The notes under the pieces were generated by a model that saw only the letters and a list, made by a program, of their open reading frames with translations, made no database searches and was not told the origin of the DNA. Source: Branchiostoma floridae (taxonomy: Eukaryota > Chordata > Leptocardii > Amphioxiformes > Branchiostomatidae). From it: a stretch of DNA of 64,000 bases. Location of the stretch: assembly GCF_000003815.2 (NCBI RefSeq), contig NC_049996.1:16045308-16109307 (forward strand), in the 5' to 3' direction. Both the position numbers and the translations under genes were made by a program. Of this stretch, positions 7,326 to 57,071 are shown piece by piece; positions within the stretch are counted from its first letter, which is position 1, and the number at the start of each line of letters is the position of its first letter.

Positions 7326-8886
7326 TTATCACCTTGTTATGGTACGGTCACATTTCCAATCCGGGCCGATCGGGCAGCTTTCCGGAACGAAAATCACGAT
7401 GTAAAAGACAACAGAACACAGAACGTAAAGAAAAATAATCATCTACATACTTTATGCATATTCCTGGATAAACACTTTCATTTTTGCTTCCGTAAACATT
7501 CTGGTTGGTCCTTTAGAATTACATGTCGTTTAAATCATTTGTATTCAAGTAAAAGTAACGATCCAATTTGTCTTTGTGTAGATTTTCTAGTTCCATGTTG
7601 ATCCCGTATTGCCCTGGTGTATTTGATTGTAGACTTTATTTCACGGGTGATGCATATGCAAGTAGATTTTTGAATAACATGAATTTTAATTCGCCGTTCA
7701 AAAGCCTGGTCGTAGTGTTATAATGCTTGTGTGTATCAAAGGCTATGTGGATTCATTTCTTTTGATGACATCCATGCGCCCAGCAATTTTCGTCCGTTAC
7801 CCCAAATTTGTAAATCTTACAAAGCAGTTGCAAAATGAGCAAATATGTGCCGATAATAGAGAAAAATATATAGGAAAACGGATGCTAATGTCGTAGAATG
7901 CCAGTCTCAAACAAGATGTGAAAGAACAAAGCTGAAGAATCTATCGTTCGGTATACCATACTATGTGTGTTTAGTAATTTGTTCAACCACTTGGATTTCA
8001 TACTGAAGTTAACTTTTTATCATTCGCATGCTTGCGCGCGCTGGCGCCAATTTTGGGGTTCCTAGAGGCCGTCCATACCTTACGCTAAAGAACTTTATTG
8101 AATCATAGACTGGACTATGTGATAGGGACCTAACTGTAATGATGAGTGATAGATCACACTGGAAGCGGAGCTGTGTTAATTATACAACTCGATAAGAGTA
8201 TGACTGTGTATGTGTATGTATGTAGAGGCTGCCATCTATATCAAATCCATATGGCCTAAGTTCTTATCACGAAACTAGAAATTTTCCCAATATATGTATA
8301 TTTTTATTAGTCTCTACCAGACTCCGGCCTGGCCGAATAGTAATAGGGGACTCCGTTCAAGTTAGGAATAAAAGCCTAGTGGGAGTTACATGTAATTGGC
8401 CTAGGATTGAATGGACCGGCCGACGGATAGCTGGATAGACCGCAAAAGACTAAAATCCCATGGCAACAAATTCTTCTCTTTGCCATCCAGCTGACACCTC
8501 TGGTTTGGTAAGGGGTTGTAAAACGAAGGTCAAGTTCGATGACAGGCATTATATTGCATTTTTTCATAGTACTGCAGCAGAAATTCCCGTTTTGATGCCC
8601 CGTGTTCTGGACATGCTATGGGTATGATTTGTCTGGAATTGCAGGGACCGACTTGGAAAATAGAATAACACAAGAAGGGGTTGACGGATCGTCGTGATTT
8701 TTGTTATATTTTGTCAATACAGTCGCATGGTGAAAATAATCATATTATAAAAAATACACTTTTTTCTTTCAGGTGAGCCAGCCGGCTGGTTGTTCGCCCT
8801 CCCGACTCGGGGATAACAACCCTGCAGCAGACAGCGGCACAGACCGTTTAGAAGTAACTTAGCTGTTATATAGTTTCATATCTAGC

Positions 8887-20199: not shown

Positions 20200-20428
20200 T
20201 CAGTAGTTGAAGACAAAGGAGTGCTCTAAGAGTTCCTGAGCGGACGCCCTTTGTCTGTGGTCTTTCTGGAAAATGATCCTGAGAAAGTCGTGTGCGCAGT
20301 CCGAGACGCCGGCCGGAAGCTTGGGAATGGTGGGCTGCGTGGCAATCTTGAAAATGGCTGCCATGGGCTCGTAGTCGAACCACGGGGGCTTCTCTGTCAG
20401 CATCTCCACAACTGTACAACCTATACTC
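20200..20428 (-). CDS. MAP3K2/3: MAP3K2/3 last coding exon (kinase subdomains IX-XI)
   Basis: Acceptor CTGCCCTTCCAG at 20429-20430. The first base completes the Trp codon of ADIW. The exon encodes [16 protein letters not shown] ... and ends HSFVFNY with TGA at 20200-20202. Confidence 0.95.
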
Positions 20429-23377
20429 CTGGAAGGGCAGAGATATATGGTGTTAACAATTGTGCAACATAAGAACTGTACATACAATCTATACTCCTGT
20501 AAGAGTAGAAATATAACAACTCTTTATTGGTCCCATATGTGGCCTGAACGTGAAGACTAACGATATATGGCGGGAAGACTTACCATATATGGTCTGAAGA
20601 CTTACCATATATGGTCTGAAGACTTACCATATATGGTCTGAAGACTTACCATATATGGCCTGAAGACTTACCATATATGGCCAGAAGACTTACCATATAT
20701 GGCCAGAAGACTTACCATATATGGCCTGAAGACTTACCATATATGGTCTGAAGACTTACCATATATGGCCAGAAGACTTACCATATATGGTCTGAAGACT
20801 TACCATATATGGTCTGAAGACTTACCATATATGGCCTGAAGACTTACCATATATGGCCAGAAGACTTACCATATATGGCCAGAAGACTTACCATATATGG
20901 CCAGAAGACTTACCATATATGGTCTGAAGACTAACCATATATGGCCAGAAGACTAACCATATATGGCCAGAAGACTTACCATATATGGCCTGAAGACTAA
21001 CCATATATGGCCTGAAGACTTACCATATATGACCCGAAGACTTACCATATATGGCTTGAAGATTATCATCTATGGCCAGAAGACTTACCATATATGGCCA
21101 TAACAATACCATATATGGCCAGAAGACTTACCATATATCAGCTTTTCTGCCGTAACCTTCCCCGTTGATGACCTCTGGGCTCATCCAATATGGCGTCCCC
21201 GTGACCGTGCGCATTCCGGTGGCGCTGCAGATCGTCTGGATCCGCTTCGACGCCCCGAAATCTCCCAGCTTCACGTTTCCTGAGGAGTCCCTCAATATAT
21301 TTGCACCTGGGAACAACGAGGGGACATGTTAGGGGGTAGGTTCATATATCTGTTGATATATCTATCCCTCGGAAAGGACGTTAAATGGAGGTCCCGTGTC
21401 TGGGGAGAGCCATACCCATGCACGTCAAAGATCCCAAATGTGCGATGGTGCGGTGTGCGATGGTGCAAATTCTTCTGTCTGGAGTTGGTGATTCACTACA
21501 AATCACCCGGATGGAGGTCTGGCGAACCTCCATACCGTATCAGCCACATGGTGATTTACATCATTCACCCGGACGGGAGACCTGGCGCATCGACGTCTTG
21601 TAATTAGCCAGCGAAAGGGTAAGTCACTCCGTAAGGGGCGGTATAACCCTGTCGTGTGTAAGCAGGTTGACTGCCGGATGATGATGAATATATCTAGTTT
21701 CCTAGCAACGTGTTTTGGCACTCCCAGTCAGTATAGTCCTACTGCTGGCTCTAGTGTGTCCCATGCAGATAACATGTTGCTATGTAGATAACATGTTGCT
21801 ATGCAGATATCATGTTGCTATGGAGATATCATGTTGCTATGGAGATATCATGTTGCTATGCAGATATCATATCTAGATGGCCGTACCTTTGATATCCCTG
21901 TGGACGATCATGTTGCTATGCAGATATCATGTTGCTATGCAGATATCATATTGCTATGCAGATATCATGTTGCTATGCAGATATCATATTGCTATGCAGA
22001 TATCATATTGCTATGCAGATATCATATCTAGATGAACGAACCTTTGATATCCCTGTGGACGATCATGTTGCTATGCAGATATCATATTGCTATGCAGATA
22101 TTATGTTGCTATGCAGATATCATGTTGATATGCAGATATCATGTCACTATGCAGATATCATATCTAGATGAACGTACCTTTGATATCCCTGTGGACAATC
22201 ATGTTGCTATGCAGATATCATGTTGCTATGCAGATATCATATTAAGATGAACATACCTTTGATATCCCTGTGGACAATCATGTTGCTATGCAGATAGAGA
22301 ATTCCCTCCAGTATCTGCCGTGTGTATTTCCGTGTTACATTCTCGGTAAGAGCTCCATACTGTCGGATCTGGTCCTTAACAGAGCCCTACAACAAACAGA
22401 CAAACAAACAATAGTATTAACATGTGACAACTCATAGAGGGTTAAGGTTTGAAATATGTAAGTGTGAAACTGAGTATATGTGTGTGTGAATGTGTGTGAT
22501 TCTATGCTCAAGCCAGGCATGTACTTCACATGTGTGTGCATGTATGTGTGTGTGTGTCTGTGTGTGTGTGTCTGTGTTGTGTGTGTGTGTGTGTGTGTGA
22601 CTGTGTGTGTGTGCCTGTGTGTGTGTGTCTGTGTGTGTGTGTCTGTGTGTTATGTGTTCTCGTGTGTTCTCATGTTTGTTCTCATGTTTGTTCTCATGTT
22701 TGTTCTCAAGTGTGTTCTCATGTGAGGGAAGTTAGTACTCACCCCCAGCGAAGATACAGTGCCTGTTCTCGTGTGTGCCCTCATGTGTGTTCTTGTGTGT
22801 GTGTGTGTGAGAGAGACAGAGAGAGAGTATGTGTGAGAGGGAAGTTAGTACTCACCCCCGGCATGTACTCCATGAAGACGCAGAGCCTGTTGTCTCATGT
22901 ATGAGTGTGTGTGTGTGTGTATGTGAGTGTGTGAGCATGCGTGCATGTGTGCGTGTGTACTCACCCCCAGCATGTACTCCATGAAGATGCAGAGCCTGTT
23001 TTGTGCTAGTGTGTGTGTGCATGTGAGTGTGTGTGTGTGTGTGTGTGTATGCAAGATTGTGTGAGCATGACAGTGTGTATGTTTGTGTTTTAGTGAGTGT
23101 ACTCACCCCCGGCATGTACTCCATGAAGATGCAGAGCCTGTTCTCATGTGTGTGTGTGTGTGTGAGTGTTCTAGTGTGTATGTGTGAGTGTGTGAGAGTA
23201 TGTGTGTGAGTGTGCTATAATACTCACCCCCGGCATGTACTCCATGAAGATGCAGAGCCTATTCTCGTGTGTGTGTGAGTATGTGTGCCTGTGTGTGTAC
23301 GTGTGTTTGTGTGTACTCACCCCCGGCATGTACTCCATGAAGATGCAGAGCCTGTTCTGTGTTAGTGTGTGTGTGAG

Positions 23378-23415
<38 letters not shown>

Positions 23416-26400
23416 TATGTATGTGAGTGTGCTATAATGCTTACCCCCGGCATGTACTCCATGAAGATGCAGAGCCTGTTCTCGTCCTGGATGCAGCCGT
23501 AGTACTGAACTATCCTCTCGTGCTGCAGGTTCTTCAACAGCTGGATCTCACACTCCAGAGCTTTCACTTCCTGCTGTAAACAACAAACAACAAACAACTT
23601 TCACTTCCTGCTGTAAACAACAAACAACTTTCACTTTCTGCTGCACAACACAAACAACAACTTTCACTTCCTACTGAACACAGAAAAATTCCTGTTGTAG
23701 ACAAACAACTTTCACTTCCAGATGCTGTAAACAACAAACAACTTTCAATTCCTGCTGCACAACACAAACAAAAGCTTTCACTTTCTGCTTCACAACACTA
23801 ACAACGTTTACTTCCTGCTGCACAACACTAACAACTTTTACTTCCTGCTGCACAACACTAACAACTTTTACTTCCTGCTGCACAACACTAACAACTTTTA
23901 CTTCCTGCTGCACGACACAAACAACTTTCACTTCCTGCTGCACAACATAAACAACTTTCACTTTCGGGTGCAGAACAACAACTTTCACTTTCTGCTGCAC
24001 AACAAAAACAACAAAGCTTTCACTTTCTGCTACACAACACAAACAACTTTCACTTCCAATTGAACAACACAAACAAACAACTTTCACTTTCTGCTAACAG
24101 AAATAACTTTCCCTTCTAGCACAACACTCTCAGAACTCTAACACTGCAATACCACAACCAGCAATAGCAGACTGGATCTCACACTCCAGAGCTTTCACTT
24201 CCTACTGTAAACAACAAACAACAAACAACTTTCATTTTCTGCTGCACAACACAAACAACTTTCACTTCCAACTGAACAACACACAAAACTTTCTGTTGTA
24301 AACAAACAACTTTCACTTTCAGATGTTGTACACAAACAACTTTCACTTCCAACTGCACAACATAAACAACTACTTTCACTTTCTGATACACATTAAAAAC
24401 AACTTTCACTTTCTACTGCACAACACAAACAAGAACTTTCACTTCCTTATGTACAACACAAACAAGAACTTTCACTGTCTGCTGCACAATGCAAACAACA
24501 ACTTTCACTTCCTCCCGTAAACAACAAACAACTTTCACTTTCTGCTTCACAACACAAACAACTTTCACTTCCTGCTGTAAACAACAAACAACTTTCACTT
24601 CCTGCTGCACAACACAAACGACAAACATTTTTCACTGCTTCCTGCAAAACACAAGCAACAAAAAATTTTCATTTCCTTCATAACACTCTCAGAACCCAGG
24701 CAGCAGCATCATTAACCAGCAATAACTAGACTGACCTTTGAGGCCTCCACGTTTTTGGGGTCGAGGTGGACCTGTTTGAGCGCGAGTTCTCGGCCGGTGT
24801 CGGCGTCGTAGCAGAGATACACCTGTCCGAAGGCGCCCTGCCCGAGCAGCTTGCCCTGTCGCCAGTTGGTGGGAGCTCTCGGTGCTGTGGAAACATGGAA
24901 GGTGTTAGGGACCTGCTCATATCAACACACACGTGTGACAAACTGCAGAGGGTTGGACAATTCCCGATTATCCCAGGCAAGTAAAAGTGCCCATCGAGCA
25001 AGCACAGGTCCTACACCACTTGACCGATCGGGCAAGTAAGATTTTTCCATGATTGAGATTGCAATATACATACTTGTTACATCTCAAAGTCATGGCATCG
25101 AGAATTGGCTACATGGAAACATAGAGCCAATTATAATTAGATGTGGCTTCCATTGCTGGAAGTGAAAATACATAGAAAAGAAACATAATTCAAATTTTGG
25201 GCAAGTGAAAAGTTGGTTTGGGCTAGTAGTAGTGAATTTTTTTATGTACTTGCCCAATAGGATAAGTACAAAGCTTGTCCAACCCCGCTACTGCTCCTAT
25301 AACAACTATGCAAACTGCCTAAACCACAGCTGTCACCTTTTCAATCTTGGGAGGGAAGGTCAAAGGTTAGTACATGAGCAGTCACCATGGCTACGACCTT
25401 TCACCTGCCCAGTGGCATACGACCCTTGACCCTTCACCTGAAGTTAGTCCCATTCTCCCACCAATGGTTTTACACAATAGGAAAGTCATACATGTGGCGG
25501 ATCCTCGGTTTGCTACCAGCAACATCCACGGCTTTCTCTGGTACGCATTGTACAGAGCTACTGTGGTGGAATCTCTCCCCGCTACTGCAATATAAACAAC
25601 ACTCATCACGCAGGGCCGAGCTAGCCTAGGGGGTCTCTACTGACAGACTTACCCTCCCTGCTACTGCATTACAAACAACACTCATCACGCAAGGCTCGGC
25701 TAGCCTAGGGGGTCTCTACTGACAGACTTACCCTCACTGCTACTGCAAGACAAACAACACTCATCACGCGGGGCTCGGCAGGCCTAGGGGGTCTCTACTG
25801 ACAGACTTACATGTACCCTCCCAACTACTGCAATACCACCAACATTTATCATGTAAGGTTGGGCTAGCCTTGGGGGTCTCTACTGACAGACTTACCCTCC
25901 CTGCTACAGCAATATGCGTGTAAACAACAGTCATCACGCAGGGCTGGGCTAGCCTAGGGGGTCTCTACTGACAGACTTACCCCATAACCTAGAGCTCCCC
26001 ACTACTACAATACGAAAAACACTCATCACAGTTGGCTGAATTAACTTAGGGGGTGTCTACTGACAGACTTACCCTCTCGTCTAGTGAAATACAAACAACA
26101 CTCATCATGCACTGCTGGGCTAGCCTTGGGGGTCTTTACTGACAAATTCAACCCCCCAACTACTGAAATACAGCCAACACTCATCACCCACAGCTGAGCT
26201 AGCCTAGGGTGACTTAAATGAGTCACTGACAGACTTTCCAAAGAATACAACCAACATTCATCACACATGAGCGGGCTAGCCTAGGGGGTCTCTACTAACA
26301 GACTTACATAACCATCATTCACACAACATTCACAACACTCATCATGCGGGTAATATCACCATAGGGCATCTTTTCAGACAAGAGAGGTACTACAAGCCTA

Positions 26401-29400
26401 TTTTTGCTTTTACTCAAAGGTCACCACGGAACACGACCGGAAGGTCACTTCAAGGTGTGACGCGAAGGCCATTCCAAGGTAACAGGTTACATAAGTTTTA
26501 CACCTAAGGCTAACTGAAAAACTAAAAAACTGAAAAAGCATCTCTTCTCACTTACGCATTGAGACCTGCACAACTGCTCACTAGTAAGAGTGAGGACTAA
26601 CTGACCCAATAGCCGAGTACTCATTTACATGTACTACCGACTCCTTGTTATACACTTCTGTTTCCTGTAGAAAATACAGCATGGTTACACATCAATGCTA
26701 GTTTACCTTTCTCCACTGGGTAACCTATTTCTATTGCTATTAGATGGTATTCATTGATATCAAATCAATGGACGGTTCAAATGGCAATATTTTCAAAATA
26801 TTGCAGTTTGAAACCACCATGTGCTGACGTGATATCCCTGTTTTCAAAAGCAACGGATATAGGATATAAAGCAGATAACCGGATGAACTAGCATCACAGG
26901 AGTACAATGCAAAACTTTCTTCCAACACAAAGGAATACACAGATCAAACTTTCAATGACTACTGTATCCCTTTGTGTTGGAAAAAAGTTAAGCATTGTAC
27001 TATGATAACAAAACAGATAAACTTCCATGATGGTTGAATGTAAGTTCATCTGTGACGGTAGTCAACATTATGTTACAATTTTAAGACACTATATCCGTAG
27101 GCCATTTACATCAGAGCCCACCAACCTTCCCTCAACCGAGACGGGGGCCGATACCGACTGCCAAGCACCTTTGACCCTTTAATGACGTCACACTTCCCGT
27201 ACGGATATGTGACTTAGGCTTTGGGTCATTTCAACTTGAGAAGGATCAGAGGACTGATCGAAAGCTTGTTGGTAAGCGCTTTCTTTTGTGTACGGATATA
27301 GGATCTTAATATTGTAACATACATTTGCATAATTCCACCAGGTGTCATTATACCGCCACCTCAAAAAACATTGTTATAGAGGCCTTTTCAAGATCGTCTT
27401 CAACACCTAAATATCTGAATTGTATTACATTTAGGATATTTAACATTCGGTTTCAAGACAATCTTGGGAAGACCTCTATACTAACGTTTTTTGAGGTGGC
27501 GGTATTATGGCACCTGGTGGAATTATGATAGTCGATGTTAACATAATCTTCTATGATCATGGTGTTTAAAAAAAGTAGAAAGCAGCGGCGGTGTGTGCGT
27601 CGCGGGCGCGGAACTTACATGACTTACATCTCGCCGGGTTGAGGTCCTGGAGACTCAGGACGGCAAGGTCGTAATCGCTGTCTCGTCTCTCGGAGTCCGT
27701 CACCAGCCCGCTGCTGCTGCTGCTGTTGCTAAGGGAACGCTCGCTGCCCGACCTTGGACTGAACGTGCCCACCGGTCTTCTCAAGGTCGGACTGGGCTGC
27801 GGTCTTCTCGTTCTGGGGAATGTTTTACGCCCTGCGGAGAAAAACCGGGCCGTTATACAGGTCCTGGGGCTGAAAGCATACGTTATACAGGTTCTGGAGC
27901 AGAAAACACACTTTAATTATACATGTTCTGGGGCAGAAAAACTCCATATCTATACATGTTCAGGGGCAGAAAACACCCTTATAATTGAAATAAAAATGCA
28001 GTTCTTAAATGTTGGGAGATGGACGTTTCTTAGACAAGAGAGATTCCCAGTTACACACTAGTAGTATTAATATACTAGTACATGTTCTGTAATGAGACAA
28101 GAGATTTTAAGTTATACTCTTGCATGTTTTGTAGTGAGATTCTCCATGTCGCTGTTGGGGAGGTGGTGTGGATGAATTGAGATGACTGGTAAATTAGTGA
28201 CTAGGTTGATAAGTTAGGGACATGTTTGCGAGGAAAGAAGACTAGCTTTTCTCACCGTCGCTGTAGTCGTGATGCGGGTTCGTCATGATGGTGGATCTTC
28301 TGGGGTACGTTCCACCTTTCCCGGCGCGCTCCACATGGGCCAGCTCGTGTTCTGGGCAGGGAACAATCAATTGATCAATCAATTAATCAATCAACTAATT
28401 AATCAAATAAATAATCAACCAAAACAGAAAGACAAGACACATTGACATCAGCTCGTGTTCTGGACAGGAAACAATCCAGCGATCCATCAATTTATCAGCC
28501 AATCAATCAATCATTCAATCAATTAATTAATCAACCAGAGCAGCTTACTCCACATGGGCCAGCTCATGCTCTGGGCAGGAAACAATCCAGCAATTTATCA
28601 ATGAATGAATGAATCAATCAATCAATCGTATCATGTCCAAAATCATATCCAGTTGCTTGAGTAACTGCTTTTTTTGCGTATCTTATTACCTGGATGTCTG
28701 ACCTTCATTGACCAATCACTCACTCACTCAATCAATCAATCAATCAATCAATAAACAAATTGATCAATCAATCAATGAAACCAGAAAGATAGAACAAACC
28801 TGTACATGGGCCAGGTAACAACATCTATCTTATATATCTATTTATGAATCTTTAACTAAGTTTTACGTAATGCCTTTAGTTAAGTGATTTCCAGGGAAGC
28901 CCAAGCAGACTGGAGGCATACACATCCATCATGCACCAGGGCACTGTAACACACCCAGAATGCAACAGGGTAGCAACACCCAGCATGCACCAGGGCAATG
29001 TCATACCCAGAATGCACCTGGGCAATGTCACACCCAGAATGCACTAGGGCACTGTAAGAGGACCACAAAGTTGAAGGTTGAACAAAGACACAGAGCAAAT
29101 AGTACGTGAATACTGAACAATATCTATAGATTCTTCATGTTTGCTTTCACATCTTCTTCCCTGACCTTGGAATTGATGTTGCCAATCTATGAATGTATAT
29201 GCTTTCCGATACATTTTTTCTTCGATCTACGGCACGTTTCTTAATTTTTGCAGCTGCTTTGTTCGACATTCAGTACGGTTAAAACATTCTCTTTTTGGAA
29301 ACAGCTGAAAAGTGCAGATGTTATCAATATTTTCAAAGCAACATGTCCTTAGTGTAGTTCACAACAGCCTTTGCAGAAATCAGGCTGCAGCCATTTGCTG

Positions 29401-32400
29401 TGTCCACGGTTCAGCCATATTGGGCCAGGCAAAGCTTCATGTACATGTAGTTTCTAACCACTGAAAACCACACAGACACGACACGACGTAACAAGAAGTG
29501 AGGATGTTTACCTGAGACCCAAGAACGAGGGCCTAAAAACCCAGCTGGCAGCGGAAAAAAAGACAAAGCGTAAGAGCAGAACTACGGTATCATCAGGGAA
29601 ATTTCGGCATTTTTCTACGAACCGCTCTAAAAATCATGTTACCACAAATACACAATGGTAATCGATGGGTAACAATTATAAAGGGCAATACAATTCATAA
29701 AGTGAAAGTACTGGTTTACAAAGTTTACCCTCCTTTGTTTTTCACACGCATGTGCTAAACAACATTGTCAATCTCGTTGTGTGAACTTACATAGCAGTGT
29801 GTCAGGTTGGGTCAGAAGCATGAGGAAACAGCACAACATTAGTACAACAACAACACAGTACTGTGACAATATCAGTGTTCTCGCCAGGATTTCTTTCACA
29901 GCGTATGTAGAGGCATCTTAGTACTGCAAAGCCATGTGGTGAGTAATGCAGAAGTGAGCATTGTAGGGGGTCTGGGAGAATCCTCCCCTTGGAAGTTTTA
30001 AAGTTTTTAACCATCAGAAACAACATTTTGCTATATTTTGAGAGCCAAATTTAGTAACATAAAGCCAACATTTTTAACCCTTTGTTCTAAAACAACAGAA
30101 AAGCCCCATACACTGGTTGAAACATAGCATAGGGGCCAAAATCACAACATAGAGCCAAAATCACAGCATAGGGGCAAAAATCTCAGCATAGGGACCTCAA
30201 TCACAGCATAGGAGCCAAAATCACAGTGTAGGAGCCCGCTATGCTGAAAAGGCCTGGCGAGACCACTGAATATTAGTAATATAACAACACATTACTAACA
30301 ACATATTTTGGGTTTTACATTTGTACAAGAGCTTGAATATTTGCTGCAACAACTTGTATTCAAATTGTAGATCAATCCTCACTTGAGACTTTACTTATTA
30401 CAAAGATAAGTCCCTTGACTCCTTAAGAAAACAGACTTACCGCCAAGGAACTCGTCTGAGAAGGCAGAGGAGCTCTTGGTCCGACTCATCCGTAGTCTGT
30501 TATAGTAGCTGTCACTACTGGCAGAAAGGAGAAGTCAGTCCAACGAACAGAGAACAATAGGTACAACAATACAACAAACATAATTTTACATTAATTGCAA
30601 AAGTATTTCTATTTATGCCATAGGTTCAGACCTGCACCTGAACCTCTGGACCCGAGTCCAGACCAAACATAAACAAGAGGTTCGGTATGCAGCACTTCTT
30701 CAAGGTGTTTAGGACAAAAGATTTATTACTTAATAGACAGGACTTGTGCCACTCATGTGCTTGTTTTATAAATGCTATATCAATGTTATTGACAATAAAG
30801 TTTAACCATTTTGCTTCTCTGACTCACGTGGCTTATTCAGTTATTACAGGAACCAACCATGCCTTGTGACACCATACACACCTCAAGACAAGCCATTACC
30901 CATATACTGTGCCCCCAAATTGCCCATATAAAGCGATTCCGTACCTTAGTCTGTCGAGCGAGGCAGAACTGCCCGAGTTTTCTGGACTACTGTACTCCAG
31001 AGGGTCGACCGACTAGAACAGAGAAGACATAATTAGAAATAAGGAATGCTCCTTCACACTTAAGACATCAGAAGACCCTTGAAATAAGAAAGTGGGTGCC
31101 TGCAAGACAATACAAACAAGACATTGGGTGTTTGAAAGACATTAGAAACTAGCGTGGCAACATTTTCAAGAAAATGCAGGATGTTTCCCTTACAGTAATA
31201 TATAGCATTTGGCTCAGCCCTAAGGCTTCGCCAAGAAAAAGACCACTTTACATTAGCTGCAGTATTTTGAAATTGCTGATATTTTGTTCATATTTGCTCT
31301 AACAGCTGATATGCCAATGCCAAAGGCAAATCTAAGCTCTGATGGTTCAGAACAGAACCTTCGGGAAATATAATAAGACAGTTTATCTCTGTAAGGTAAG
31401 AATCGGCAGCTCCTAGACACCATAAGATTAGACACTGGACATTAGACAGTGGGTGTCTGAAATAAGAAAGAGGGTATCTGTAAGACATTAGAAATAAGAC
31501 GTGGGCGTAAGCCAAGAATTGCCATCCCCTTACCTCTGAGTCCAGACTTGACTCAGGTATGAGGTGCCCTCCCCCTCGATGGAAGTGTAGGGGATGTAGC
31601 CCGTGTGTGTGTAAGACATTAGAAATAAGACACTGGGTGTCTGCAAGGTGAGAATTGCCATCTCCTTACCTCCGAGTCCAGACTTGACTCAGGTATGAAG
31701 GTGCCCTCCCCTTCGATGGAAGTGTAGGAACTACTGTGTCGCACTTCAGAGTCGGGGATGTAGCCAGTGTGTGTGTGTAAGACATTAGAAATAAGACACT
31801 GGGTGTCTGCAAGGTAAGAATCCCCATGTCCTTACCTCCGAGTCCAGACTTGACTCAGGTATGAAGGTTCCCTCCCCCTCGATGGAAGTGTAGGAACTAC
31901 TGTGTCGCACTTCGGAGTCGGGGATGTAGCCCGGAGGCGGAGACTGTCGATCCGTCTTCTTCTTGGTGGCGTCCGTGGTGGACTTGGACCTGGAGATGGG
32001 CACCGGTTTGGTACCCGTGGTCTGTGGGAGACAGGTTGGGGAGGTGAATACAGTTAGGTTAGGGAAGTAAATACAGTCAGGTTGGGGATGTTAACACAGT
32101 CAAACCTGACCAAGATGACCACACAAGGGACCAGTGCACCAGTTTGGTACCCGTGGTCTGTGGGAGACAGGTTGGGGAGGTGAATACATGAATGAATGAA
32201 GACCTTTATTTATTGTACATGAATGTAAGTTCATCTATGACAGTAGTCAACATTATGTTACAATTCTTAACTTTACATCCGTACACAAACTAAAGCCCTT
32301 ACCAACAAGCTTCTGACCAGTCTTCTGAACCCTATTAAGTTGAAAGAGGCCATCAACCTCACTTCCAGTCTGGATGTGTGACATAAGCTTTTGGTCATTT

Positions 32401-35400
32401 TAACTTGATGAGGATCAGAGGACTGATCGAAAGCTTGTTGGTATGCGCATTATTTTGCGCACGGATGTAAAGTTTAAAATTGTAACATAACGTCACAGAT
32501 GAACTTACATTCAAGTATTCACTTTCATTGTTACACAGTCAGACTCAGTAAAGGTATACTCTAGACTTAAGTCTTGTTTCGTTTCTACATAATAAAACCT
32601 GCACATTCACCTTTTTCACACAGCGCACNNNNNNNNNNNNNNNNNNNNNNNNNNNNNNNNNNNNNNNNNNNNNNNNNNNNNNNNNNNNNNNNNNNNNNNN
32701 NNNNNNNNNNNNNNNNNNNNNNNNNNNNNNNNNNNNNNNNNNNNNNNNNNNNNNNNNNNNNNNNNNNNNNNNNNNNNNNNNNNNNNNNNNNNNNNNNNNN
32801 NNNNNNNNNNNNNNNNNNNNNNNNNNNNNNNNNNNNNNNNNNNNNNNNNNNNNNNNNNNNNNNNNNNNNNNNNNNNNNNNNNNNNNNNNNNNNNNNNNNN
32901 NNNNNNNNNNNNNNNNNNNNNNNNNNNNNNNNNNNNNNNNNNNNNNNNNNNNNNNNNNNNNNNNNNNNNNNNNNNNNNNNNNNNNNNNNNNNNNNNNNNN
33001 NNNNNNNNNNNNNNNNNNNNNCTGTTCTAAAGAGGAATTTGCCAAAGAAATACTAGTACATTAATCGATTTAATGGACTGAATACTTACAAAAGACTAAG
33101 TTGGTAGTCTTTCGTTTTTAGTGTCGTATTTAACGTACCCACAATTTATGTACTTCTTAGACAGAGTATACATAGTAACATTTTTGCAGATCATCTTGCC
33201 AACAATGAACAAAGTAGTTTTCAATTTACAATTTTTGTGTATTCCTTGTTGTAAATATCGTAGGGTCCGGAGGATAGGACGCTAGGGGGGGTTGAATCTA
33301 CGTGTTACGGCGTCATAACCAACGTGGAACGGGGCCTTCTGATTGGTCCGCGGCGCCTGGCTATATGATAATACACAATAAAAACCTGTATAAAATAATG
33401 ACTAAACAATACAAAATAAAAACCTGTAGAATATCGTCATCAACAAAAGTTCTCAAGGAAACAAAACAACATCTCATGAGTCATAAGGAGAAAGCAAAGA
33501 AAATCGTAAGAAATGAAAAGAAGAAGAAAAAGTCGCTGTCACAAAGAGGTTATGGGAACATCAAGGTCACATCAAGGTCACGTCCACGACTTGACTAGAG
33601 TCTTACGGATTCTTCTCCGTCGACTTCTTCCCCCGCATCTTCCAAGGCCTCAGCCTCGGAACCAGCCTCCTTAATTGACTCTTCGATATCTTCTTGAGGA
33701 GGAACAGAAGACGTGTCTGAAATAGCCTCTTTCGCTGAGTCGTCAGGAATGCTGGTGTCTTCCTTGACCGAGGAAGTGTCCGAGTTGTGTTCCTTGACGG
33801 AAGAAGTGTCGGAAATTGTCTCCTTGACGTCGGCGAGCTCCTCCTTAGCGGAGGTGCTGCCCGTGTCTCCGACGGACGCAGCTTCCGAGGTGTCTTCTCG
33901 CGTGGAAACGGACACTTCCGACGCCGTGTCCTCCTTAAGGAGGGTTCCAAGGAGCAGCAGGAGCAAAGGAAGGTGTGCGTTAGAATAAGGAATAAGGCAA
34001 GAACTTTCACTTTCAGTAGGACAGACAAGAACTTTCACTTTCAATAGGTCAGGAAAGAACTTTCACTTTCAGTAGGACAGGAAAGAACTTTCACTTTCAA
34101 CAGGACAGGAGAGAACTTTCACTTTCAACAGGACAGGCAAGAACTTTCACTTTCAATAGGACAGGAAAGAACTTTCACTTTCAGTAGGACAGGCAAGAAC
34201 TTTCACAGGCAAGAACTTTCACTTTCAATAGGGCAGGAAAGAACTTTCACTTTCAATAGGACAGGAAAGAACTTTCCCTTTCAATAGGACAGGCAAGAAC
34301 TTTCACTTTCAATAGGACAGGCAAGAACTTTCACTTTCAATGGGACAGGAAAGAACTTTCACTTTCAATGGGCCAGGAAAGAACTTTCACTTTCAATAGG
34401 GCAGGCAAGAACTTTCACTTTCAGTAGGACAGGCAAGAACTTTCACTTTCAATAGGACAGGAAAGAACTTTCCCTTTCAATAGGCCAGGAAAGAACTTTC
34501 ACTTTCAGTAGGACAAGAAACAACTTTCACTTTCAATAGGACAAGCAATAACTTTAACTTTTAATCGGACAGGCAAAAACTTTCACTTTCAATTGGACAG
34601 GCAAGAACTTTCACTTTCAATAGGAGAGGCAAGAAGAGTCTTTAAGTCACAGCCAAGACGTCTTGACATCAACATTGAACAGTGTTAGTCACAGTGAGTC
34701 TATTATGGTATTTTAGAAAAGCTTGTTCAGGACAAAGTGTAGAATGAAAAAGAGACTTTGGAAACATCCTCAGTATAGCAACTGTACCTGGGTTCAGGTA
34801 TGATATAACTAATGGTGAAGGACTGTTTTCAGGTGTTATTGACAATGTTTACAATGTATTAGGGTTCTCACCAGGATTTTTTAAGGATCTTACTTCAGTG
34901 GTACAGGCATAAGCATTGTAGGGGGTCTGGGGTATTATCCCTCTGAAAATGTTTGAATTTATAACTCTCAGAGATACCATTTTCTGCATTCTTAGAGCCA
35001 AGTTTAAGCATAGGGACCCAAATAAAAGCATAGGTGATACAAATTACAGCACAGGAGGATACAAATCATAGCATAGGGCTATGACATAATGACAGGTGTT
35101 TTTTTTTTCTTTTAAGGTGTCCTTAACATGTTGTTGACAGTANNNNNNNNNNNNNNNNNNNNNNNNNNNNNNNNNNNNNNNNNNNNNNNNNNNNNNNNNN
35201 NNNNNNNNNNNNNNNNNNNNNNNNNNNNNNNNNNNNNNNNNNNNNNNNNNNNNNNNNNNNNNNNNNNNNNNNNNNNNNNNNNNNNNNNNNNNNNNNNNNN
35301 NNNNNNNNNNNNNNNNNNNNNNNNNNNNNNNNNNNNNNNNNNNNNNNNNNNNNNNNNNNNNNNNNNNNNNNNNNNNNNNNNNNNNNNNNNNNNNNNNNNN

Positions 35401-38252
35401 NNNNNNNNNNNNNNNNNNNNNNNNNNNNTTAATGGTTGAAATTTTTGTTTTCTGCAGTGCAAAACATATTTTTTTGTTTGCTTGATTGTTCCTACATTTT
35501 AGGGTGGTTAAAGAGTATGTTTTGTTTGTTTTAACATCAATGTTGTGTATAACATGTGTTCACTCTTACCTCAGTGTAAAACATGTTTGTTTGTTTGTTT
35601 GTTTGTTCTTACCTCAGTGTTAGTGTAGAACATGTTTGTTTGTTTGTTTGCTCGTTCTTACCTCAGTGTTCGTGTAGAACATGTTTGTTTGTTTGTTTGT
35701 TTGTTCTTACCTCAGTGTTAGTGTAGAACATGTTTGTTTGTTTGTTTGCTCGTTCTTACCTCAGTGTTAGTGTAGAACATGTTTGTTTGTTTGTTTGTTT
35801 GTTCTTACATCAGTGTTAGTGTAGAACATGTTTGTTTGTTTGTTTGTTTGTTCTTACCTCAGTGTTAGTGTAGAACATGTTTGTTTGTTTGTTTGCTCGT
35901 TCTTACCTCAGTGTTAGTGTAGAACATGTTTGTTTGTTTGTTTGCTCGTTCTTACCTCAGTGTTCGTGTAGAACATGTTTGTTTGTTTGTTTGTTTGTTC
36001 TTACCTCAGTGTTAGTGTAGAACATGTTTGTTTGTTTGTTTGTTTGTTCTTACCTCAGTGTTAGTGTAGAACATGTTTGTTTGTTTGTTTGTTTGTTCTT
36101 ACCTCAGTGTTAGTGTAGAACATGGTGAGTAGCTGCCCGTACGCCGTCTTCACTTTATTTTGTAAATCCTGGAAGTTGACTGGTCGGGGGACCTGGATTA
36201 TTCTGGGGTGAGGAAAAAACAACAAACAAATAAATAAAACAGCTTCTCTCAAGTCTCATGACGACATGTATATGTTTCTTACATGTGTCTAACCTAAGGT
36301 TTTGAAATGATGGTGGAAGCAAAGGTCTGTTAAGGTTTCATCATTGTCTCACTTATTTGGTAGTATGATGTTACGTATATATTGTTGTTCTTTGGTTTTG
36401 CTACAAAGAATTTTGTCCAACATTTTTAGTACTTATCTTGTAACTTTGACTGAGATGATGCATATGAATTTTGAACAAGGTTTCCCTCCTGAGACACACT
36501 AAAAAGTGCCATATGGCAAATTGTTTTGCCCAGTGTATCTGTATCTGTATCGATATAGCCGGTATATCCGCCCTTCAGCGTAACACACCAGCTTCAAACA
36601 AGCCAGTGAAACAAACAAGAGCGGTACCTTTTCTCCCCCTGGAACTCGAACTTGACCCTGACATCAGTCTGTGAGGAGGATTTGGAGCTGGAATGCGACT
36701 TGTGCCAGGCCGACTGCTTCATGCCGGCAGCCAGGTCATTCTTGATGGAGTTCAAAGCCTCTTTTTCATCTGCAACAGACACAACAGCACACTTTTAATA
36801 TTTGTTTTACACTTAAAGAAAACAATAAATACATGACAATGAAATATAAAAGAACATAAAAGTGCAAGGGAGGCCAGAGGTTTCTTCCCTTTAAGAACTT
36901 GTTACCATTTATATAAATTTTTTATTTTTTTTTTTTTTATTTACTTAGAGGTCACCGCAAAACAAGGCTCATGGAGCCACTCAAGCGTTTTGGGTTACAT
37001 TACTGAATTGTGAAGAGAGATGTTTGTTTACCCTTAATTTAAACAGTTTCAGGCTGTACCCTGTGGGGAAGCAAGTCCGTGGAAGCTTATTCCATAGCGA
37101 TGTTGTTCTAGGAAAAAAGCTCTGAGCGTGGAACTTCCTCCTGTTAGGTGGATTGTGTAGGAAAAAAGGATGATTTGTTTCCGTGGAAGTGGCTAAACGG
37201 GTTCTTGCTGTGAAGGTTCGTATTGAGGGCACAAGTGAATGAAGTTCTGCCGAGCATTTACCATGGAAGTACCGATAGAAAAGTGCTAGGCTAGCTACAT
37301 CACGCCTTTGGGCCAATGGTTGTAGTGTGGCGAATAAGTCGCTGCCAACAATGTTCCTTAACCGTTTTTGTACTCTATTGAGGCAGGTCAGGGAGTTCTG
37401 GGAGGCTCCAGCCCAAATGTGACAACAATATTCCATTTTGGGCCTTATCTGTGTCTTATATAGATAAAGAATAGCAGAGGGGGTAAGATATTTTCTGGTT
37501 CGGTACAAAGAGCCCACCATTTTCCCAGCTTCCTTGGCAACGGATTGAATGTAACAATTCCACTTAAGATCAGGTGTAAATTTTAGGCCCAAGAGTCGCT
37601 CAAAGCATGGGGCTTCTTTTAGTAGAGTCCCACCCATTTGGACCGGTGGCAGGTTCGGATCGGATCTTTTATGATGGTACGAAAGAAGGTTTGTTTTTGA
37701 AGGGTTGAAGGTCACAAGCCACGTTTTGCCCCATTGAACTGTATGATCAAGGTCAGCAGAGAGATTAGCTGCAAGGGAGCGGTCATTACATCTCTTGGAT
37801 GTGTGGCCAAATACTGAAGTGTCATCAGCATATATGTCGACAAATGATCTCAGTATATGATCAGGCAGATCATTTATGTAGATTAAAAATAATGTTGGAC
37901 CGAGGATGGATCCTTGCGGTACTCCAGCATTGATGCTATGACATTCTGATTTTTGACCATTTATAATGACCTTCAGAGATCTGCAGAACAGGAAGGATTT
38001 TATTGTTGCTAGAATCTTGCCGCAGATGCCATAGCTGGCAAGTTTATGCAGTAAACCTCTATGCCATACCTTGTCAATTAAACAAAAGAAATAAGTATGG
38101 ATAATAAATACTATGTCAGAGGTTTTCCCACATAGAGACTCACAGTACTGTCCATGGCAACATTTTATTTAACAATTCGGAAAAGGAGAAGAACAAATAG
38201 GACAAATATACAAATGTATCATGGTGACGATAAAAGTTCTATACTGACCCAT
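20200..38252 (-). CDS. MAP3K2/3: MAP3K2/MAP3K3 (MEKK2/3) ortholog, spliced CDS with one missing segment
   Basis: Joined pieces: 38249-38252, 36628-36769, 36103-36202, [gap], 31836-32021, 30945-31012, 30441-30517, 28256-28351, 27628-27831, 24736-24884, 23445-23573, 22257-22386, 21132-21306, 20200-20428. All borders are GT-AG and phases agree, giving 562 residues plus the missing part (the vertebrate proteins are about 620). The order matches MEKK2/3: N-terminal EKEALNSI, first half of a PB1 domain, [13 protein letters not shown] linker, GGTYPRR, then a kinase domain with GQGAFGQV (P-loop), ALKQV (VAIK Lys), HRDIKGANIL (catalytic loop), [12 protein letters not shown] and an XI-lobe end. The product is a Ser/Thr MAP kinase kinase kinase acting upstream of MKK5-ERK5, JNK and p38 in other animals. 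All catalytic residues are present. The second half of PB1 and the segment after it are not found and probably lie in the N gaps at 35143 or 32629. Confidence 0.95.
20563..21131 (-). repeat. 24 bp minisatellite seeded by the MAP3K exon-13 donor
   Basis: On the sense strand, about 23 units contain ATATATG|GTAAGTCTTC. This is identical to the real exon end and 5' splice site (ATATATG|GTAAGTC at 21132/21131). The array abuts the exon. Confidence 0.93.
21132..21306 (-). CDS. MAP3K2/3: MAP3K2/3 exon (DFG to activation loop)
   Basis: Acceptor GTTCCCAG, donor ATG|GTAAGT. Encodes [20 protein letters not shown], the activation loop with [16 protein letters not shown], and ends GRKADI plus two bases of Trp. 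Confidence 0.95.
21340..21700. repeat. SINE-like dispersed repeat (partial)
   Basis: CCCTCGGAAAGGACGTTAAA ... GGAGAGCC resembles the tail of the SINE at 38370-38650. The 21503-21660 part (CACCCGGATGGAGGTCTGGC, GTATCAGCCACATGGTGATT) closely matches 43500-43665. Confidence 0.65.
21762..22250 (-). repeat. Minisatellite built from MAP3K exon-12 sequence, including three donor copies
   Basis: A 20 bp unit (ATCATGTTGCTATGCAGAT on plus) equals the exon segment encoding LHSNM. Three longer units at about 21881-21930, 22036-22080 and 22172-22220 also carry CTTTGATATCCCTGTGGAC, the VHRDIK codons, plus the donor (AAAG|GT). Confidence 0.93.
22257..22386 (-). CDS. MAP3K2/3: MAP3K2/3 exon (GSVKD to HRDIK)
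   Basis: Acceptor TTTGTTGTAG, donor AAAG|GTATGT. Encodes [20 protein letters not shown] and ends [14 protein letters not shown] plus one base. It contains the catalytic HRD-Lys motif. Confidence 0.95.
22460..23440 (-). repeat. TG microsatellite interleaved with six copies of the MAP3K exon-11 end plus donor
   Basis: CGGCATGTACTCCATGAAGA with flanking CACCCC and GCAGAGCCTGTT recurs near 22848, 22958, 23102, 23222 and 23319, with a diverged copy near 22738. On the sense strand each reads [12 protein letters not shown] codons followed by GGGG|GTGAGT. Long (GT)n tracts separate them. Confidence 0.93.
23445..23573 (-). CDS. MAP3K2/3: MAP3K2/3 exon (alphaC to hinge)
   Basis: Acceptor TTGTTTACAG, donor CCGGGG|GTAAGC, 43 codons in phase 0. 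Encodes [20 protein letters not shown] (alphaC Glu) and ends [10 protein letters not shown]. Confidence 0.95.
23590..24680 (-). repeat. About 30 copies of the MAP3K exon-11 acceptor and first codons
   Basis: On the sense strand the ~33 bp unit reads TTGTGTTGTGCAG|CAGGAAGTGAAAG. It combines a polypyrimidine-like tract, AG, and the exon's QEVK codons. One longer unit at 24168-24214 includes about 45 bp of exon (CTGGATCTCACACTCCAGAG on plus). The flank CTCAGAAC...AACCAGCAATA is also duplicated (about 24128 and 24688). Confidence 0.93.
24736..24884 (-). CDS. MAP3K2/3: MAP3K2/3 exon (P-loop and VAIK lysine)
   Basis: Acceptor TTTCCACAG, donor TCAAAG|GTCAGT. Encodes [20 protein letters not shown] and [13 protein letters not shown]. 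Gly-rich loop and catalytic Lys are both intact. Confidence 0.95.
24885..25550. other. Intron, no repeat or exon recognised
   Basis: Ordinary intronic sequence of the MAP3K gene. No distinctive structure seen. Confidence 0.5.
25555..26335 (-). repeat. About eight-copy intronic repeat of ~100 bp with a donor-like site per unit
   Basis: The plus-strand unit contains CTAGCCTAGGGGGTCTCTAC, TGACAGACTTACC and ACAAACAACACTCATCAC. The sense strand has a consensus 5' splice site, GGAGG|GTAAGTCTG, in most units. I cannot find a parent exon for it. Confidence 0.9.
27035..27327. mobile_element. TIR element family D, copy A (partial right end)
   Basis: Shares TGAATGTAAGTTCATCTGTG, AGGATCAGAGGACTGATCGA and GAAAGCTTGTTGGTA with the copy at 32220-32513. 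The right end is displaced or lost where a palindromic element begins at 27328. Confidence 0.75.
27328..27527. mobile_element. Palindromic MITE, 200 bp, about 60 bp inverted ends
   Basis: CATAATTCCACCAGGTG...CCGCCACCTCAAAAAAC is matched in inverse by GTTTTTTGAGGTGGCGG...CACCTGGTGGAATTATG. The inner TATAGAGG/CCTCTATA blocks are also inverted. No clear target duplication is seen. It sits against copy A of family D, perhaps inserted into it. Confidence 0.8.
27628..27831 (-). CDS. MAP3K2/3: MAP3K2/3 exon (basic/Ser-rich linker)
   Basis: Acceptor TTTCTCCGCAG, donor GAGAT|GTAAGT. Encodes [19 protein letters not shown]..., a Ser run, and [15 protein letters not shown]. Aligns with the TFPRIRR-containing linker of MEKK3. 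A second GTAAGT lies 10 bp further into the intron. Confidence 0.9.
27845..27990 (-). repeat. Short intronic repeat with acceptor-like motif, about four units
   Basis: ATACAGGTTCTGGGGCAGAA and variants repeat about every 38-50 bp. On the sense strand each has TTCTGCCCCAG|AAC. This resembles the acceptor of the neighbouring exon at 28351 (CTGCCCAG|AACACG). Confidence 0.65.
28256..28351 (-). CDS. MAP3K2/3: MAP3K2/3 exon (GGTYPRR)
   Basis: Acceptor TCCCTGCCCAG, donor GACG|GTGAGA. Encodes [20 protein letters not shown] and NPHHDYSD. Matches KGGTYPRR...HKDYSDG of MEKK3. Confidence 0.93.
28352..28800 (-). repeat. Copies of the exon-8 acceptor plus (AATC)n tracts
   Basis: CTCCACATGGGCCAGCTC.TG.TCTGG.CAGG, the exon start plus acceptor, is repeated at about 28448-28475 and 28546-28580, with a trace near 28802. 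The copies are separated by AATCAATCAATC microsatellite. Confidence 0.88.
28880..29060. repeat. Minisatellite of about 30 bp, five or six units
   Basis: Units based on CACCCAGAATGCACCAGGGC with GCAATGTCA or ACTGTAA. Confidence 0.85.
29870..30240. repeat. Dispersed repeat, copy 1, ending in a 20 bp tandem repeat
   Basis: GTTCTC(G/A)CCAGGATTT and GCATTGTAGGGGGTCTGGG also occur at 34863-34935. Its 3' part is a tandem of ATCACAGCATAGGGGCCAAA-like units (30120-30235). Confidence 0.75.
30441..30517 (-). CDS. MAP3K2/3: MAP3K2/3 exon (RMSRTKS)
   Basis: Acceptor TTTCTGCCAG, donor GGCG|GTAAGT. Encodes [20 protein letters not shown] and DEFLG. Matches the RMSRAQSF segment of MEKK3. Confidence 0.92.
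30945..31012 (-). CDS. MAP3K2/3: MAP3K2/3 exon ([11 protein letters not shown])
   Basis: Acceptor CTGTTCTAG, donor CTAAG|GTACGG. Encodes [20 protein letters not shown] plus RL, similar to LDPLSSAENS...SLDRS in MEKK3. Confidence 0.9.
31527..31780 (-). repeat. Two intronic copies of the MAP3K exon-5 end plus donor
   Basis: CTTACCTC(T/C)GAGTCCAGACT, i.e. donor plus SLDSE codons, recurs at about 31532 and about 31669 besides the real site at 31831. The second copy extends back to the GYIP codons (about 31760). Unit length is about 140-165 bp, including AGACATTAGAAATAAGACAC. Confidence 0.92.
31836..32021 (-). CDS. MAP3K2/3: MAP3K2/3 exon (SPPPGYIP / FIPES)
   Basis: Acceptor GTCTCCCACAG, donor TCGGAG|GTAAGG, 62 codons in phase 0. 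Encodes [20 protein letters not shown] and [12 protein letters not shown], matching SSPPPGYVPE...GSYTS...GEFIPE in MEKK3. Confidence 0.95.
32128..32187 (-). repeat. Intronic copy of the MAP3K exon-5 acceptor
   Basis: TTTGGTACCCGTGGTCTGTG and GGAGACAGGTTGGGGAGG duplicate 32007-32050, i.e. first codons plus acceptor and upstream intron. Confidence 0.9.
32220..32513. mobile_element. TIR element family D, copy B (294 bp)
   Basis: Inverted ends of about 22 bp: TGAATGTAAGTTCATCTATG ... AGATGAACTTACATTCA. Further inverted blocks (TGTTACAATT / AATTGTAACA, ACATCCGT / ACGGATGT) lie inside. The interior GAGGATCAGAGGACTGATCG is shared with 27035-27327. No transposase frame. Confidence 0.82.
32629..33021. 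other. Assembly gap (N)
   Basis: 393 N within the MAP3K intron region. It may hide a missing coding exon. Confidence 0.99.
33600..33952 (-). CDS. Acidic Ser/Thr/Glu-rich exon, origin unclear
   Basis: Sense strand: pyrimidine-rich stretch then CTCCTTAAG|GAGGAC, followed by about 113 open codons to a TAA at 33600. The sequence is dominated by [11 protein letters not shown] repeats and ends [11 protein letters not shown]. It does not match the MEKK2/3 segment expected here and would end that protein early. It could be the last exon of a nested or misplaced gene, an alternative MAP3K terminal exon, or non-coding. It lies on a 2.1 kb contig bounded by gaps on both sides. Confidence 0.35.
33995..34640. 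repeat. 33-35 bp minisatellite, about 19 units
   Basis: Unit AAGAACTTTCACTTTCAATA plus GGACAGG(A/C). Confidence 0.95.
34855..35085. repeat. Dispersed repeat, copy 2
   Basis: Matches 29870-30240 (TTCTCACCAGGATTTTTT, GCATTGTAGGGGGTCTGGG, then AGCATAGGG units). Confidence 0.75.
35143..35428. other. Assembly gap (N)
   Basis: 286 N. It lies between the first PB1 exon (36103) and the PPPGYIP exon, so it is the likeliest place for the missing end of PB1. Confidence 0.99.
35567..36102 (-). repeat. About ten copies of the MAP3K exon-3 end plus donor
   Basis: CTTACCTCAGTGTTAGTGTA + GAACATG is repeated about every 50 bp, with (TTTG)n between. On the sense strand each unit is the codons for MFYTNTE followed by GAG|GTAAGA, identical to the real junction at 36103. 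Confidence 0.95.
36103..36202 (-). CDS. MAP3K2/3: MAP3K2/3 exon (PB1, second piece)
   Basis: Acceptor CTCACCCCAG, donor ACTGAG|GTAAGA. Encodes [20 protein letters not shown] and [13 protein letters not shown], aligning with IIAFSRPVKYEDVEHKV in MEKK3. Confidence 0.95.
36533..36597. repeat. Dispersed repeat with GTATCTGTATCTGTAT core
   Basis: GATATAGCCGGTATATCCGC and GCGTAACACACCAGC match, in inverse, 55186-55245. Confidence 0.8.
36628..36769 (-). CDS. MAP3K2/3: MAP3K2/3 exon 2 (N-terminus and PB1 start)
   Basis: Acceptor GTCTGTTGCAG, donor AAAAG|GTACCG. Encodes (D)[18 protein letters not shown] and [13 protein letters not shown], aligning with MDEQEALNSI and DVRIKFEHNGE in MEKK3. The first codon is split with exon 1. 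Confidence 0.95.
36905..38100 (-). pseudogene. 5'-truncated LINE (Jockey/CR1-type) reverse transcriptase
   Basis: The sense strand encodes [17 protein letters not shown], then [20 protein letters not shown] and the catalytic YADD (near 37828). The C-terminal half has [20 protein letters not shown] and TSLWNKLPR, ending ...NVTQNA at 36981. These are canonical non-LTR RT motifs. The frame is intact over about 370 codons, but the endonuclease and RT N-terminus are missing (5' truncation at about 38100). The 3' end runs into an A/T-rich tail near 36905-36925. It sits in intron 1 of the MAP3K gene in the same orientation. Probably dead, but recent enough to lack stops. Confidence 0.93.
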
Positions 38253-38308
38253 GGTAATGGTGATGGCTGTCTGTTGTGTCGCTCATCAATCTTCAGACCT
38301 GTTTAGAC
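38249..38308 (-). CDS. MAP3K2/3: MAP3K2/3 exon 1 (leader, start codon)
   Basis: Acceptor TCTCCCCACAG at 38309-38310, donor ATGG|GTCAGT. Start codon at 38252-38250, one base before the donor. Spliced to exon 2 it reads M-D-E-K-E-A-L-N, as in vertebrate MEKK3. An upstream out-of-frame ATG (near 38286) opens a 13-codon uORF that overlaps the start and stops just after the splice. Confidence 0.85.
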
Positions 38309-56352: not shown

Positions 56353-57071
56353 ATGAGGATGAGAAACTCCCGCCCCAACACGGGCGGGGCGCGGTACAGC
56401 CGTCTGCCACAGGATGATGACGGATTCATCGGTAAGTATTTGTTTCATCAAGGAGGTCCTTGGTTTCATGGACACTATCTTCTTTTGAATAGCTCCACCA
56501 TGCGGATGGCTGAAGTCCTGCTATTCAAGCGGCTGTTCTAACTTCGTGTCTCCTTCCCCATGGCCAGACATGCAGTTCTAGGGGCTGTTCTAACTTCGTG
56601 TCTCCTTCCCCAGAGTTGCAGGGACGAACGGATACGGACTATGAACACTGAACTTTCGCCCTACTATATGTCTTGTACTATGTATGTGTATTGATCCTTA
56701 CCTCCCTCATGACCTCAATGAAAAGCAGCCTGTAGACCGATTTGATCTTCTCAATGAGTTCTAGCGGCTGTTCTAACCCTGTGTCTTCCTCTCCAGACTT
56801 GCAGTTCGAGAGGCCTCCCCGGAAGATCCCGTACAAGGCGATCGGGCTGGCGACCATCCTGTTCCTTCTCGGTACGGCCCTCCTGACGGTCGGCTCGCTG
56901 CTGCTGGCCGGGGTGTACATCGATCCGCAGTACGCCGACCGGACCTGGCCCGTCCTGCTCCTCGGACTGCTGGTCTTCATCCCCGGAGGCTATCACGTCT
57001 TCATCGCGTACAACGCCTGGAGGGGCGTCAAGGGGTACTCGTTCGACGACATTCCGGATTACAACGACTAG
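56353..57071 (+). CDS. TMEM230: TMEM230 ortholog, complete, two coding exons
   Basis: Joined 56353-56431 and 56797-57071 (donor ATCG|GTAAGT, acceptor TTCCTCTCCAG), 117 residues (vertebrate protein 120). The N-terminus has [20 protein letters not shown], as in vertebrate YSRL..DDGYIDLQF. It is followed by [20 protein letters not shown], a first membrane span to [10 protein letters not shown], a second span [20 protein letters not shown], and the C-terminal [11 protein letters not shown], matching GYSYDDIPDFDD. TMEM230 is a two-span endosomal/secretory vesicle protein linked to vesicle trafficking. The start has Kozak context CCCGCCATGA. No truncation or frameshift. Confidence 0.96.
56515..56796 (+). 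repeat. TMEM230: Copies of the TMEM230 acceptor in its own intron
   Basis: GGCTGTTCTAACTTCGTGTC + TCCTTCCCCA..AG + CATGCAGTTCTAG (about 56528-56583) and a second copy (about 56581-56625) precede the true acceptor unit (56765-56810: GCGGCTGTTCTAACCCTGTG, TCTCCAG|ACTTGCAGTTCGAG). Confidence 0.9.

Follow-up and report, generated by a model that had tools for sequence, protein, structure and literature searches.

Does an exon-intron border provoke the duplication of the DNA that adjoins it, or do copies of splice junctions persist in introns simply as ordinary repeats which the gene tolerates? The question is raised by a MAP3K2/3-like gene located in a 64-kb stretch of amphioxus DNA (hereafter the window, meaning the whole stretch that was analysed), for which the original prediction proposed intronic minisatellites built of copies of the adjacent splice junctions, extending across a whole gene and originating either from duplication initiated at exon borders or from selection on decoy splice sites. 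Here we describe which borders are copied, how their copying compares with that of the intron interior and of a genome sample, and which explanation accounts for it best.

The gene model on the minus strand was assembled by hand, with the E9 donor placed at 27628, and contains 13 visible exons and therefore 24 visible borders. In its product, Pfam recognises an N-terminal PB1 domain (E 2e-6) and a protein kinase domain (E 3e-73), the closest solved relative being MAP3K2 chain 9p6a (PDB, E 9e-145), which assigns it to animal MAP3K2/3. Exon 4, encoding the second half of PB1, was looked for in the visible sequence and not found; runs of N are present in the window, and this exon probably sits in an assembly gap. 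At E9 either of two closely spaced GTAAGT sites could, judging by the sequence, serve as donor, and this border with its mere 9-nt tandem donor was excluded from the copied borders counted below. Intron 1 harbours a reverse transcriptase fragment (36984-38120, minus strand; Pfam RVT_1, 1.7e-17), a retrotransposon remnant, while another coding-like open frame within the gene (33598-34062, minus strand), rich in S, D and E and having a hydrophobic stretch, adjoins a 28-bp array (33995-34635) and may be a nested gene or an unplaced exon. The search against Rfam gave no matches at gathering score.

Each border was represented by a 40-mer (20 exon and 20 intron nt) aligned to the adjacent intron. 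Border-spanning copies in the same orientation were revealed at 9 of the 24 visible borders (Table 1). Eight of them had been named in the original prediction, and all eight coincide with the model borders to the exact base, scoring 54-80; the ninth, acceptor 20428, scored 42. For the flanks of these nine, neither non-adjacent introns nor 40 shuffles of the adjacent intron exceeded 26, and the top control score over all 29 window flanks tested was 31. No copy was found by this alignment at the remaining 15 borders, where a score of 24 corresponds to self-overlap of the test, so that the extension of the phenomenon to the whole gene was too strong a statement. Likewise, the term “minisatellite” strictly fits five of the nine borders, which possess arrays of at least three copies, since the other four (31836, 32021, 28351 and 20428) have just one or two; rows of Tandem Repeats Finder cross a border at the five donors only.

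Table 1. Coordinates of the gene model, copied borders and related features in the window (copy numbers given as ranges depend on the threshold)
Feature	Border	Coordinates	Strand	Copies	Remarks
MAP3K2/3-like gene		20203..38293	-		E1-E3 and E5-E14 visible, the protein reading through each of these two blocks
E3 donor array	36103	35564..36124	-	11-13	49-bp unit = 22 exon + 27 intron nt
E5 acceptor copy	32021	32136..32188	-	1	136 bp upstream of true site
E5 donor copies	31836	31522..31933	-	2	166-bp unit, ~96 exon + 67 intron nt
E8 acceptor copies	28351	28449..28584	-	2	
E9 tandem donor		27613..27628	-		second GTAAGT 9 nt downstream, in frame, no stop; from sequence
E11 acceptor array	23573	23574..24677	-	13-33	~30-bp unit; 33 copies at 14 or more of 21 matches
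E11 donor copies	23445	22851..23485	-	5-6	5 clear, 36-49 exon nt, GT-rich surroundings; sixth copy weak, without GT, at 22504-22528
E12 donor array	22257	21763..22296	-	3	40 exon nt in the border-spanning copies; 19-bp exon-derived subunit also expanded
E13 donor array	21132	20551..21138	-	22-24	22-bp unit = 7 exon + 15 intron nt; 24 border-spanning copies
E14 acceptor copy	20428	20483..20509	-	1	68 bp upstream; absent from the original prediction
TMEM230 exon 2 acceptor region	56797	56524..56621	+	2	in its intron

As had been supposed, the repeats are copied from the junctions beside them: their exonic part (7 to ~96 nt, with intron sequence attached) consists of conserved kinase or PB1 codons, which means that copying ran from exon to intron, and the presence of true intron sequence beside these codons derives the copies from a junction that already existed. 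The copies end at scattered distances, 7-96 nt inside the exon, and not at the border itself (unit lengths in this and the family analysis below were fixed by hand), and they differ mutually by substitutions and indels. Arrays touching no border occur in the same gene too, at 25575-26307 and 33995-34635. The former has a 79-bp unit in about nine copies, displaying on the minus strand an acceptor-like AG, about 10 nt and then GTAAGT; its interpretation as copies of a hidden micro-exon was set aside, as E9 already continues into E10 in frame. The latter was rejected as a junction copy, its family touching no modelled border.

Beyond MAP3K2/3, the neighbouring TMEM230 gene on the plus strand (Pfam TMEM_230_134, 3e-17) holds two copies of its exon 2 acceptor region; the nearer one spans the border (48 bp at 83%, 8 exonic nt, score 56 versus 27 for the best of 500 shuffles), while the second is shorter and in that test reaches the border without spanning it. 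Adjacent-intron alignment gave no copies for the donor of TMEM230, nor for three borders of a gene resembling LRIF1. The exon of the latter (46286-48259; Pfam LRIF1 3e-10) is preceded upstream by an in-frame coding minisatellite (48840-49428, minus strand) with units of 27, 36 and 72 bp. The plus-strand stretch 8863-11831 comprises an LRR receptor-like frame (Pfam LRR_8) and, after it, a coding-like repeat of 267 bp that is read in a different frame, and a frameshift or an intron near 10700-10740 is possible. In these two clearest coding arrays, taken from hand-picked rows, the units are divisible by three (267; 27/36/72); among the junction arrays the 30-bp unit is divisible by three and the units of 22, 49 and 166 are not.

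Most probably, the copied borders stem from ordinary tandem duplications within a repeat hot spot, those at borders being retained as the exon-proximal site stays intact. According to this scenario, tandem duplications would arise at many places in the unusually repeat-prone MAP3K2/3 gene, and those spanning from an exon into the intron would leave the full exon and the outermost splice site intact. Since both stay unchanged, junction duplications should be tolerated at any unit length, unlike exon-internal ones, which would have to preserve the frame. Slippage or unequal exchange may then expand some of the junction copies within the intron, with the exon-proximal site presumably remaining in use and the copies being neutral passengers. 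Given a high local duplication rate, junction copies would thus be expected to follow.

The principal competitor of this explanation assumes a bias in birth or upkeep: borders seed duplications, or the protein-constrained exon copy anchors and re-seeds the arrays, so that they outlive those in the middle of introns. Per base, the borders of MAP3K2/3 are copied no more often than its intron interior: a local copy exists for 34-36% of border-spanning 16- to 24-mers and for 33-34% of intron-only ones, and in raw alignment 9/24 borders are copied, compared with 34.3% in 2,166 pseudo-border tests (P 0.45). The raw intron figure is inflated because every copy is counted, and therefore a measure based on distinct sequences is given too. 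The two disagree. By distinct sequence, a three- to fourfold border excess exists inside the gene, with P of 0.0014 or lower: alignment gives 9/24 borders versus 12.2% of collapsed intron (P 0.0014), and k-mers give 8-9 of 24 versus 8.5-9.6% of introns (P 9e-5 to 6e-4). When repeat families are counted instead, 9 of 18-22 lie across a border, whereas the collapsed intron length would lead to 1.6-2.5 (P 3e-5 to 2e-4; the run with k = 24 yielded none in 200,000), which is an excess of about four- to sixfold, the count at k = 20 having fused the E11 acceptor array with that at 25575-26307. Under uniform seeding this excess does not arise; border families would have to be retained or seeded at about four times the rate of the others or higher for it to become compatible with chance (P 0.08 at fourfold; 0.026 at threefold). 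All within-gene P values are generous, because MAP3K2/3 was chosen as striking, and the distinct-sequence excess could be a matter of chance, of gene choice or of longer life of exon-anchored arrays.

Variation among the copies also bears on biased upkeep. In the four donor sets compared, variable columns amount to 6/105 among exon-derived positions versus 12/69 among intron-derived ones (CMH p 0.023), and copy-to-copy divergence is lower in the exon-derived columns in 4/4 sets, a pattern that would not be expected if the copies were fully passive. The test took in four of the five donor sets, that of E5 being omitted owing to an indel; taken as it stands, the latter shows no difference between exon and intron. 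In the E11 acceptor array, divergence from the true site is equal in columns of both kinds (exon 0.084, intron 0.080), which also speaks against an anchoring role of the exon.

For comparison beyond the window, a sample was drawn from two contigs of the same assembly (200 kb and 80 kb), totalling 237,439 bases without N and producing 30 alignments with the window at 76-98% identity, in line with dispersed repeats shared within a single species. Its exons were predicted by a small self-made and self-trained gene finder with splice matrices. Applied to the MAP3K2/3 region, which was part of its training data, this program returned 14 minus-strand exons, nine with both borders right, two with one and three wrong, as well as one plus-strand chain (score 48) that is probably false. 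In the sample it predicted 132 exons in 12 chains, of which the low-scoring may be false; Pfam matched 6 of the 10 exons tried, mostly high-scoring ones. After removal of borders with exon score below 4, outer borders of chains, borders with N in the core and those of introns shorter than 60 nt, 187 were left (94 donors, 93 acceptors). Border-spanning copies were found at 2/187, both donors, and at 0/187 in the reversed-target controls. One of the two, a predicted donor of a kinase/Ig gene (near 9017, minus strand, of the sampled stretch L016) which we take to be PTK7-like, has a 54-nt junction copy beginning 37 nt inside the intron and is likely a further repeat of the same kind; the other, in a weak chain (score 54), may be a false one. 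Since intron interiors of the sample chains gave 2.0% and 4.9% raw and 1.0% and 1.4% collapsed, sample borders show no excess over intron interiors, within small numbers. The threshold of this count recovers all nine MAP3K2/3 borders but not the TMEM230 copies, which implies that the sample count would overlook copies of that intron-heavy type.

Compared with the sample, 9/24 versus 2/187 borders gives P 3e-8, and MAP3K2/3 is an outlier in minisatellite density as well: minisatellites cover 33.8% of this gene, 10.9% of the remaining window, 2.5% and 3.9% of the two sample blocks and 1.5% of the predicted introns. A biased birth or upkeep at borders, although consistent with the family count, the collapsed comparison and the donor columns, appears rather unlikely in view of the sample, of copy ends lying away from the border and of the way the gene was picked. 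The assumed initiation of duplication at exon borders finds no support in the copy ends, the per-base rate or the sample, and the border excess over the interior holds within MAP3K2/3 by distinct sequence and family, not per base and not among the sample borders. In its boldest form the idea would make the exon edge of repeat-prone genes a privileged seed: the protein-held copy would re-seed junction duplications that outlive mid-intron arrays, borders would nucleate minisatellites several times above the intron rate, and spare splice sites would be steadily supplied. We regard this as doubtful, though conceivable.

Tolerated duplication in a repeat hot spot remains the reading which we prefer, and the splice-site content of the copies may be considered in its light. 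The copies do put many competing sites on offer, as originally suggested: GT is retained in 46/47 donor copies, 37/47 equal or exceed the authentic donor in score by a consensus matrix, and AG occurs at either NAGNAG position in 28/33 copies of acceptor 23573. These values would suit selection for decoy or backup sites, by which copies are kept since they compete for splicing factors or buffer them, but the high scores are explained by recent copying, and use of a copied donor leads to a premature stop in 47/47 cases (for 21132 right at the first new codon). In addition, the copies in four donor sets do not vary less within the 9-nt donor motif than elsewhere in the unit (CMH p 0.81), so that selection for or against decoys is not seen in them; the E5 set, left out here too because of its indel, behaves oppositely, its motif being less variable (p 0.029). 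Authentic donors with copies (n=5) have a higher mean score than those without (n=7), in terms of plain averages, which counts against the neutral reading. Altogether, selection on decoy sites, the second mechanism originally put forward, seems very improbable.

Equally small is the chance of an artefact, that is, of arrays that a gapped assembly has created or enlarged. The N runs, the invisibility of exon 4 and a published case of an aberrantly assembled repeat of this type (PMC3087553) agree with it, but the divergence between copies, the occurrence of the pattern in two genes on opposite strands and the independent loci described in the published passages (PMC3087553, PMC3902484) argue against. 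That the copies are relics of intron birth via tandem duplication of a proto-splice site, as was proposed for globin introns in the published account (PMC3087553), is hardly credible, being contradicted at nine borders where the copies include existing intron sequence and the intron therefore predates the duplication.

Returning to tolerated duplication in a repeat hot spot, the absence of a border excess in the sample together with the three- to fourfold distinct-sequence excess in one repeat-rich gene makes the question testable genome-wide. There is also a warning to annotators: one of the three wrong exons called by our gene finder is the junction copy 31640-31534, resembling lancelet PGBD5, for which automatic annotation is described as having built an unsupported exon from repeats (PMC3902484).

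Border-spanning repeats of amphioxus have been named mirages and reported, in the passages available, for the Adh3, globin, TnC and PGBD5 genes (PMC3087553, PMC3902484, both citing Canestro et al. 2002), which bears out the border repeats originally put forward for an amphioxus Adh locus. The globin cases are BflGb6 and BflGb9, further loci being cited (PMC3087553, PMC3902484), and for lancelet PGBD5 two such repeats are described, with TnC mentioned (PMC3902484). Normal mRNA splicing and length instability are on record for mirages in these accounts (PMC3087553, PMC3902484). As described there, mirages share with our arrays the tandem copying of exon-intron boundaries on the donor or acceptor side into the adjacent intron in the same orientation, and the retention of AG/GT in many, not all, copies. 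Unit lengths are 10-72 bp in Adh3 and 150-160 bp in globin mirages, compared with 22-166 bp in MAP3K2/3. Ordinary intronic minisatellites (VNTRs) form head-to-tail intron arrays as well, but the junction unit of MAP3K2/3 includes exon and splice site. The Rogers model (cited in PMC3087553) likewise invokes, as presented there, tandem duplication involving splice signals; unlike such intron gain, in MAP3K2/3 the intron came first and its sequence belongs to the duplicated unit, so that instead of an exonic unit preceding the intron we found units containing intron sequence beside the border. The portion of PMC3488318 (spliceosomal introns) considered holds nothing on mirages, and the titles and abstract openings searched, a scope with most subscription papers outside, announce no genome-wide mirage count. 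The published passages, which give no border number for Adh3 or TnC, report one border each in two globin genes and two in PGBD5, versus nine in MAP3K2/3. Thus the kind is already known, and what the present analysis adds is the location of nine mirages in one gene, along with one in its neighbour, and the comparison of borders with the intron interior and with a genome sample.
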